A stretch of 64,000 bases of DNA, from positions 16,676 through 80,675 of the IMG/VR virus record IMGVR_UViG_3300020424_000003, one strand, 5' to 3'. The notes below the pieces were generated by a model that was not told the origin of the DNA, made no database searches, and was given only the letters and a program-made list of their open reading frames with translations. Positions 9,489 through 12,485 of this stretch are shown here, piece after piece. Numbering within the stretch: the stretch's first letter is position 1; every line of letters begins with the position of its first letter. This DNA is from a virus. The position numbers were made by a program, and so were the translations under genes.

Positions 9489-9792
9489 AGTCTTTTCCTT
9501 GCATTAGACAGGCATAGCCTTTTCTTTCGACCATCCTGCCATTAATGTTAACACTATACCAATGTTCGCGACATTCCTTTGCTATGCCCATTTTGGGTGG
9601 CAATAGCTTTTTGACAGGATCGTCGCTACATTCTGTGATTTGTGTGCTGTCAACTACACCGTTTTTTTCAATGATTGTTTTGTTAGTATCACAATACTGA
9701 TGACCGTTTTCTTCTAGTGTTAGCTTGTTACCTGTGGCACTACAACCTGTAGCTACCATCATCAGAGCTATTATGTATAGAAGATGTTTCAT
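9448..9792 (-). CDS. Putative lipoprotein
   Basis: 114 residues, signal peptide MKHLLYIIALMMVATGC with lipobox ATGC. Cys-containing remainder (YCDTNK, ITECSDD, AKECREHWYSVNINGR). The last 41 nt overlap the start of the next lipoprotein gene in another frame. Not recognised. Confidence 0.7.
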   Translation of the reverse strand: MKHLLYIIALMMVATGCSATGNKLTLEENGHQYCDTNKTIIEKNGVVDSTQITECSDDPVKKLLPPKMGIAKECREHWYSVNINGRMVERKGYACLMQGKDYETSKWYIVTSPF

Positions 9793-9801
9793 ACGGCTCT
9801 C

Positions 9802-10368
9802 CTAGTCGACTTGTTTAGCTGACTTGTTAATAGAGTTCGTATCAATCTTTACTTGAGAAGCTCTAATACCTTGTGCTTCTGCTACCAATTGATCAACAAT
9901 CTCCTTATCAAGTTTCAACATTATGAAATGATGATACTTGCCATTTCTTTTGTACAAGTAACCTTCATTAGATGAATAATGTCTTACAACTGTATCTGTG
10001 ATCTTGTTAACAACCAATACTTGAGACTGTGTAGAAGAAACCAAATTCTCTTCACTGCCACTATCATTATATTCGATTGTTGTTCGCTTGTTCACTGCAC
10101 CGTTAATTCTATCAGCAATTTTAGTTTTTGCTAACTGCAATGATTTATCATAAGCCGCTTCTTTAAAGCCACTTACTGCACTACCACAAGCATAGTAGTA
10201 GTCTTTAGACCACCAAAACCAACCTTCAGTTCCAGTGTCCTTACACTTCATATACCAATTAGGTACTACGTCTTGTTGCTTTTCAACGACAGTAGTCATT
10301 GTTGAACAAGCTGACATCATTACCGCCATTGTTGCGACTAATGTCAGTTTTTTAAATGTGCCTTTCAT
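9802..10368 (-). CDS. LPP20-like lipoprotein
   Basis: 188 residues from the ATG preceded by GGAGG (MKGTFKKLTLVATMAVMMSAC), with lipobox MSAC. A longer frame starts upstream but without a ribosome site. The central region YAYDKSLQLAKTKIADRINGAV-like segment resembles the LPP20/LPS-assembly-type small domain (moderate certainty). Faces the periplasm. Transcribed from a good sigma-70 promoter directly upstream. Confidence 0.7.
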   Translation of the reverse strand: MKGTFKKLTLVATMAVMMSACSTMTTVVEKQQDVVPNWYMKCKDTGTEGWFWWSKDYYYACGSAVSGFKEAAYDKSLQLAKTKIADRINGAVNKRTTIEYNDSGSEENLVSSTQSQVLVVNKITDTVVRHYSSNEGYLYKRNGKYHHFIMLKLDKEIVDQLVAEAQGIRASQVKIDTNSINKSAKQVD

Positions 10369-10958: not shown

Positions 10959-11219
10959 TTATATTGATTTTCTTTCTGGTCCATCTGATAATGGAATAAG
11001 GTCTGATGGGATTTTGGTACTGTCTACACAAAGAATTGATTCGACAGGTCTGAACCCATATGATTGGGCTACTCTTAGCATTACTTCATTTGTGTTTTGT
11101 TGAACATATGAAATACACTCTTCTGTTGTTTTAAAAGTAGGTTCTGTAAAAACAAACAGGTTTCGTTCACCGCCTTGACCGATACCGACCATGACAGCAA
11201 CAATTAAAATTTTAAGCAT
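10959..11219 (-). CDS. Small exported protein, unknown
   Basis: 86 residues with a short hydrophobic N-terminus (MLKILIVAVMVGIGQGGE) that could be a signal peptide; Cys at SYVQQ-preceding and ILCVDS positions could form a disulfide. Starts 1 nt after the nuclease stop codon, hence co-transcribed. Confidence 0.65.
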   Translation of the reverse strand: MLKILIVAVMVGIGQGGERNLFVFTEPTFKTTEECISYVQQNTNEVMLRVAQSYGFRPVESILCVDSTKIPSDLIPLSDGPERKSI

Positions 11220-11835: not shown

Positions 11836-11912
11836 TGGCGGGAGTGAAGGGACTCGAACCCTCGGCCTTCCGCGTGACAGGCGGACGCTCTAACCAACTG
11901 AGCTACACCCCC
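11836..11912 (-). tRNA. tRNA-Asp (GTC)
   Basis: 77 nt with encoded CCA. Acceptor GGGGGTG pairs with CACTCCC (one G-U), anticodon loop CTGTCAC reads GTC, T-arm loop TTCGAGT is standard. Confidence 0.93.
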
Positions 11913-11918
11913 ATATGG

Positions 11919-11994
11919 TGGTGGAGGATACAGGAGTCGAACCTGCGACCTCCTGAATGCAAATCAGGCGCTCTCCCAACTGAGCTAATCCCCC
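11919..11994 (-). tRNA. tRNA-Ala (TGC)
   Basis: 76 nt with encoded CCA. Acceptor GGGGGAT / ATCCTCC, anticodon loop TTTGCAT reads TGC, T-loop TTCGACT. Lies 6 nt upstream of tRNA-Asp in the same transcript. It is also the amino acid that charges tmRNA, though tmRNA itself is separate. Confidence 0.93.
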
Positions 11995-12172: not shown

Positions 12173-12472
12173 GCAACTTTTCTGTTGCTAGGTAAGTTGC
12201 CAACCCCGAGCGATTATGCCGCTAGGGCAAAATCCTCATTTACAACGGATTTCTGTTTACCGAAGTTAACAAAAGTCACGTTGTTTAGTGCATTATCGTT
12301 TGCATCTATACGTTTGTTCGCGTTAACCGAGCTTACATCCGGACAGTCTCCTTCAACCTTAACAAGCCAATCGATCCTAATTCCACCCCGTCGGGGGTAT
12401 ATTGAATTGGTGGAGTGGCCGGGAATTGCACCCGGGTCTTGCTCTTGTGACATACGTTGCTATCATCAATTG
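12173..12472 (-). ncRNA. ssrA: Permuted (two-piece, alphaproteobacterial-type) tmRNA
   Basis: On the minus strand the 3' (acceptor) half comes first: T-arm CCGGG-TGCAATT-CCCGG then CCACTCC-A-CCA (about 12441-12408). A short spacer follows, then the 5' half begins GGGGTGG (about 12390), which pairs fully with CCACTCC (one G-T). AATTAGGATCGATTGG matches the conserved tmRNA D-loop region. The tag frame starts at GCAAACGATAATGC (resume codon 12303-12301) and ends at TAA (12214): 29 residues starting ANDNAL and ending NEDFALAA. A 7-bp hairpin (12173-12200) closes the RNA. tmRNA rescues stalled ribosomes and tags their products for proteolysis. The T-loop TGCAATT departs from TTCRANY. Ends of the mature pieces are approximate. 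Confidence 0.93.
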
Positions 12473-12477
12473 CTATG

Positions 12478-12485
12478 TATTTATA
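12478..12485 (-). promoter_or_regulatory. Late promoter for tmRNA
   Basis: A perfect TATAAATA on the minus strand just before the acceptor piece, predicting transcription from about 12472. Indicates the tmRNA is made late in infection. A TTGACA further upstream (around 12531) has a poor spacing to any -10 box. Confidence 0.65.

Follow-up and report, generated by a model that had tools for sequence, protein, structure and literature searches.

The window (the whole 64,000-nt stretch of viral DNA that was analysed) raises the question of whether a bacteriophage can possess a ribosome-rescue RNA of its own and, if so, when in infection and in which host that RNA would act. It holds a complete, circularly permuted tmRNA gene of the alphaproteobacterial type at positions 12524-12170 on the minus strand, a strand that the earlier, sequence-only reading had left unspecified. 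The central proposal of that reading, a permuted tmRNA on a phage genome, is borne out by two covariance models and by ARAGORN. RF01849 (alpha_tmRNA) matches over model positions 1-355 of 355 with 96.1 bits (E 6e-25; cut-off 50), RF04321 (tmRNA_permuted) matches over positions 1-213 of 213 with 89.5 bits (E 7e-16; cut-off 47), and ARAGORN independently reports a permuted tmRNA with the tag ANDNALNNVTFVNFGKQKSVVNEDFALAA. Some relatives score higher with RF01849 than the window copy does (up to 128 bits), which counts against a functional reading. On balance, sequence comparison makes it quite likely that the phage has in this gene a working two-piece tmRNA of its own, of the alphaproteobacterial type.

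The acceptor piece, which is the 3' half of the tRNA-like domain, is encoded first (12408-12474, minus strand, as for all features of the gene), and was delimited by ARAGORN, RF01849 and RF04321 with an approximate 5' boundary. It contains the T-arm CCGGG-TGCAATT-CCCGG (12419-12435; covariance models and covariation), the 3' strand of the acceptor stem, CCACTCC, which includes U70 (12412-12418; pairing and covariation), and the discriminator A73 with an encoded CCA end (12408-12411), read directly from the sequence. An intervening segment of 18 nt (12390-12407) separates it from the coding piece (12173-12389; ARAGORN and covariance models, 3' end approximate), which comprises the mRNA-like part and the 5' half of the tRNA-like domain. 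The coding piece begins with the 5' strand of the acceptor stem, GGGGTGG (12383-12389; pairing and covariation), which pairs with CCACTCC and contributes the G3 of the G3-U70 wobble, so that the earlier description of a tRNA-like 3' half lying before its 5' half was accurate. Further along are the tag frame (12214-12303), with 29 codons and a TAA stop, and a 3'-terminal stem, GCAACTT...AAGTTGC (12173-12200), which carries the 3' motif typical of the lineage and is supported by the covariance models and by relatives. The alanine identity set is complete (G3-U70, A73 and the encoded CCA), and the frame has a resume codon, a stop and an ALAA-like degron (ANDN...NEDFALAA-TAA). The T-loop TGCAATT had been singled out as odd; it is present as described, and its supposed oddness was rejected because the same loop is frequent among the relatives in this phage lineage.

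Relatives were collected via the neighbouring nrdB gene, via the tag and via the 3' motif. The covariation set consists of 38 distinct sequences picked by the 3' motif, with stem pairing not demanded; rows with shifted spacers were omitted, and the window row was added. For the 12 pairs of the acceptor stem and T-stem, 456 of 456 cells are paired (100%), and pairing falls to 55-57% when the partner is shifted by one column. Both-sided changes occur at seven of the 12 pairs (69 cells, versus 14.1 ± 2.8 in shuffles), and G3-U70 is invariant over the 38 rows. The stem match is not a chance occurrence. A separate scan for acceptor stems was left unused as stem evidence, since pairing was demanded in that scan. 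The P2 helix, whose formation between the two pieces the sequence-only reading had proposed as a check, does join them, and comparison by eye of the window with the close relative L003 reveals a compensated change from CAAC/GTTG to TAAC/GTTA. The window helix has one A-C mismatch (GCAAT/ACTGT) at which near relatives pair, and this also counts against a functional reading. The whole RNA folds better than its shuffles (z -3.1).

The long tag frame ending in NEDFALAA and a stop had likewise been proposed, and it stands. Its 29 residues, called by ARAGORN and conserved at the peptide level, belong to a family of 29-30-residue tags with the pattern ANDN(A/V)..NV.FV(D/N)F......NEDFALAA. For tags of the L005 type, the start chosen by ARAGORN (AVNEDFALAA) was rejected, as the DNA holds the full 29-codon frame. 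The clearly readable tags of the sampled alphaproteobacteria are 9-15 residues long; bacterial tags of more than 20 residues may exist among uncertain calls (e.g., L263), so a long tag does not by itself distinguish the phage, and the ALAA ending is shared with many host tags. A search of 84,980 species genomes of bacteria and archaea found no instance of the core pattern, against 36 viral contigs that have it, which upholds the earlier suggestion that the tag is the phage's own. Neither a tblastn search with the 29-residue tag nor a BLASTN search with the tmRNA matched any of 50,697 phage records, and thus no cultured phage with the window tag was found. Judged by these searches, what is new at this locus is a family of long, apparently structured tags that is restricted to viruses in the searched collections.

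The extra segment of the tag coincides with an in-frame hairpin with a UUCG loop (12242-12284), and such a hairpin is found in all 22 of the long-tag alleles (counted with flanks). When folded alone, the segment is more stable than its synonymous recodings (mean z -2.35), and its stability is matched by under 5% of recodings in 18 of the 22 alleles. These values were obtained allele by allele, since the loop position differs by one base between the GACUUCGG and GAUUUUUCU subfamilies and a single covariation test spanning all alleles was therefore abandoned. At the peptide level, comparison of 21 tag DNA alleles finds F11, V12 and F14 unchanged throughout despite variation at the third positions of their codons, and four alleles that differ in DNA specify the identical tag ANDNASNVFSFVDFSNARKYVNEDFALAA (in the listed pairs, pN is 0 and pS about 0.27-0.33). 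The long-tag alleles share ancestry, and these counts are not independent trials of selection. Conservation of the peptide together with stability of the hairpin makes both seem selected, and the long tag appears to be kept by selection on its peptide and on its RNA shape. An alternative is that the extra segment serves the RNA hairpin only, in folding or in the pacing of the ribosome, and that the peptide is incidental. The presence of the hairpin in all of these alleles and its stability relative to recodings suit this explanation, whereas the invariant residues, the encoding of one peptide by four alleles and the fixed position of the peptide motif while the hairpin register shifts between subfamilies all argue against it; we consider it possible but doubtful. 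Returning to joint selection on peptide and RNA, we infer that the long tag is an in-frame hairpin insertion in which an F-V-N/D-F peptide has been retained, and this retention perhaps alters the encounter of tagged products with host adaptors or proteases.

The time at which the RNA would be made depends on the promoter, which the sequence-only reading had called late. A perfect TATAAATA, the octamer of the T4 late promoter (gp55/gp33), lies at the 5' end of the gene (12478-12485), and 75 of the 103 distinct phage relatives have the same element 45-51 nt ahead of the T-stem, against an expectation of 2.3. Unlike in the T4 late promoter, the octamer in relatives overlaps a sigma70 -10 with a consensus -35. 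In 73 of these 75, as counted by us, the octamer is preceded by a TTGACA-like -35 at a spacing of 16-18 nt, so TATAAATA doubles as the sigma70 -10 there, and the tmRNA promoters of most relatives look early or dual. In the close relatives L003, L005 and L015, a sigma70 promoter with a 12/12 match lies 21 nt further upstream and the octamer has decayed. The window and L101 have kept the octamer and lost a usable sigma70 partner; nearly all relatives combine a TTGACA with a TATAAT-like -10 at 16-18 nt spacing at the tmRNA, and the window does not. Judging from these elements, the window gene probably has a late-type promoter, and such a promoter at the tmRNA is unusual within the lineage. A genome-wide argument for late promoters from counts of the octamer was rejected (4 sites in the window versus 4.75 expected), and gp55 (queried with the divergent late sigma factor of phage Melnitz) had no match in the 80.7-kb fragment, which is not a whole genome. 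The late-promoter claim is thus upheld as to the perfect octamer and its conserved position, and weakened by its sigma70 role in relatives; neither octamer enrichment nor a gp55 match adds to it.

These promoters bear on a second alternative, namely that the tmRNA acts early, marking host proteins for degradation and so recycling amino acids, as was proposed for Melnitz, rather than in late rescue. The Melnitz authors called their own tmRNA promoter site early (PMC9004378), and the sigma70 promoters of the relatives, whether as the -35 paired with the octamer or as the 12/12 matches, indicate that early transcription is common in the lineage. The window copy, in contrast, has no sigma70 match at that position and retains a perfect octamer; moreover, tmRNA targets stalled ribosomes, and selective tagging of host proteins would need an extra assumption. 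For the window, we think an early role of this kind unlikely.

The preferred reading, a working rescue RNA, would operate as follows, by analogy with tmRNA biology. Host tRNA-processing enzymes would cut the precursor into acceptor and coding pieces that stay base-paired, host alanyl-tRNA synthetase (AlaRS) would charge the RNA through G3-U70, and host SmpB would deliver it to ribosomes that have stalled on broken mRNAs. Translation would then switch to the phage frame, with the alanine of the tmRNA added first and the encoded ANDNALNNVTFVNFGKQKSVVNEDFALAA after it, and terminate; the ribosome would be freed, and the fragment would pass to host proteases by way of its C-terminal ALAA degron. 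The gain during infection, when mRNA is being destroyed, would be that ribosomes stay available to the phage. SmpB (PF01668) was found in none of 22 phage records (the window fragment and 21 related ones), while 10 of 14 controls were positive.

The absence of SmpB from the phage fragment would also suit a decoy that titrates SmpB or AlaRS and so blocks host trans-translation. The tmRNAs of mycobacteriophages are one-piece and not permuted. Phage-borne tmRNA genes are described for Bxz1, Wildcat and DS6A (PMC4131195, PMC11915505), and that of DS6A is reported to be a tRNA-like domain without a tag frame that inhibits host tmRNA. The window gene differs from it in having a full tag frame, and since its resume codon, stop and ALAA ending, apparently under peptide-level selection, would be superfluous in a decoy, we regard this explanation as very unlikely.

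The source record is an 80,675-bp virus fragment on which this is the single tmRNA, and it is a piece of a marine T4-like bacterial virus; its nrdA is closest to those of Synechococcus myophages and of Pelagibacter phage Mosig (about 70%). In every measured relative with a 29-residue tag, nrdB precedes the tmRNA on the same strand by about 2.0-2.3 kb. That the gene is a captured host ssrA, decaying, or a functionless remnant of an integration (attachment) site is highly improbable, for although prophages often integrate at ssrA and carry its fragments (PMC9004378), and although the window copy has the P2 mismatch, both pieces are complete, compensatory changes keep the pairs in 38 relatives, the tag is conserved as a peptide and the promoter element in position, and the site downstream of nrdB is conserved in T4-like phage.

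Melnitz and Mosig are published precedents for permuted tmRNA in marine phages, and 53 two-piece phage tmRNAs, 50 of them marine or aquatic, were suggested in 2022 (PMC9004378). Both Melnitz (Methylophilales; MZ577097) and Mosig (Pelagibacter; MT647606) are likewise T4-like phages of marine origin whose tmRNA is permuted and of the alpha type (PMC9004378), and they share with the window a phage promoter and a similar gene anatomy. They differ in their tags, GEDNFALAA in Mosig and a short tag ending in YALAA in Melnitz, as opposed to 29 residues; in gene setting, with their tmRNA adjoining the late-transcription coactivator rather than lying downstream of nrdB; and in sequence, the nucleotide similarity to the window being too low for blastn. 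The permuted tmRNAs of alphaproteobacteria (RF01849/RF04321; the latter covers permuted tmRNA genes generally, PMC11915505) have the same order of pieces, the same tRNA-like domain with G3-U70 and the same ANDN...AA tag ends, whereas the window gene adds the hairpin inside the tag and a virus-specific 3' motif.

That motif, CGGGGTTGGCAAC.TACCT.GCAACAGAA, occurs in at least 119 viral contigs. Among bacterial-genome contigs it was found in only two, both from one metagenome-assembled genome (MAG), and one of the two is also an IMG/VR virus, with which it agrees in length. The MAG, assigned to Rickettsiales bacterium MED657 (G021), contains three permuted tmRNAs, at least one of which lies on a contig that also has a virus entry; the contigs are probably misbinned phage contigs, and a host assignment from this MAG was rejected as a binning effect. 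In a tree of tmRNA bodies, built with tag and spacer removed, one branch (SH-aLRT 99) splits 93 phage from 25 bacterial sequences. The alignment is short and some branches are long, and the phage rows were gathered by similarity to the window phage, which favours the appearance of a single lineage. With that reservation, the phage tmRNAs seem to form one lineage apart from the 25 sampled bacterial ones. The sequence-only reading had deduced an alphaproteobacterial host from the type of tmRNA. Such a host is not established: the phage tmRNAs fall in a separate lineage, and the deduction is weak because Melnitz has an alpha-type tmRNA yet infects a gammaproteobacterium (PMC9004378).

The intervening segment, which has no ORF in the window, ranges from 18 to 383 nt across the phage relatives. 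Among 18 distinct segments of at least 140 nt, an ATG-started ORF takes up at least 83% of the length in 16, a filling reached by at most 0.6% of shuffles, and an AAGGA just past the CCA often precedes the ORF. One family of 61-63 codons, M(E)xIWHILLTVCLGSTC... (L085, L091, L037, L121, L319, L322, L365 and others), is secreted-looking with conserved cysteines. Its pN/pS is about 0.16-0.27 in most pairs, with higher values only in the closest pairs, and by this ratio its spacer ORFs are evidently under purifying selection. Among its best 80 viral homologues, 26 found by script, together with L297, found by inspection, lie exactly inside a spacer and occur with many different tag bodies, and in the 26 the stop codon falls 1 nt ahead of the coding piece; other homologues adjoin tRNA-Leu genes, lie between tRNA genes or are elsewhere. 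A homologue is also annotated just upstream of the Melnitz tmRNA. The long Melnitz spacer itself (L374, MZ577097, about 2580-2720) has an unannotated ORF of about 47 codons, which was not counted as a gene since it runs into the coding piece. Other, unrelated ORFs of 41-114 aa fill the spacers of L124, L043, L069, L023, L176 and L186, with no convincing family match in Pfam or PHROGs. Identical or nearly identical spacers occur with different tags in L120, L156 and L195, and in L098 and L152; this suggests that the acceptor piece and spacer may recombine with different coding pieces. The tmRNA database paper describes, in its main text, a tRNA gene and a repetitive element inside intervening sequences; its relevant passages name no protein genes there, and our literature search found none.

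Phage tmRNAs are usually viewed as captured host copies. A virus-only lineage with selected long tags would mean that the phage profits from controlling both ribosome rescue and the fate of its products, and the small genes in the spacers of relatives would make the spacer a functional mRNA and tie tRNA-type processing to protein expression. As a tentative extension, which we rate as somewhat improbable, the virus-specific split tmRNA might form a modular unit, in which long, peptide-selected hairpin tags confer a fate other than plain degradation by the host, the promoter can be switched between early and late, and a slot for mRNA in the spacer of relatives allows each precursor to yield a rescue RNA and a protein. 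Tagged peptides ending in SVVNEDFALAA would offer a searchable signature in marine metaproteomes or infected cultures.

Several smaller features surround the gene. Genes for tRNA-Ala(UGC) and tRNA-Asp lie directly 3' of the tmRNA (11836-11994, minus strand), and a perfect sigma70 promoter, TTGACA-N17-TATAAT, is located just after the tmRNA and directed towards them (12170-12142, minus strand). In L005 and L015, the tmRNA is followed by tRNA-Ala, tRNA-Asp and a Glu or Asn tRNA. The tRNAs in this position decode residues that are abundant in the tag, which may be a coincidence. Further downstream in the window, a small secreted-looking protein is encoded at 10959-11219 (minus strand), with a cysteine pattern that recalls the spacer ORF family. 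In L022, a glutamine riboswitch (RF01739, 49.5 bits; 9754-9802) is found about 1.5 kb downstream of the phage tmRNA.
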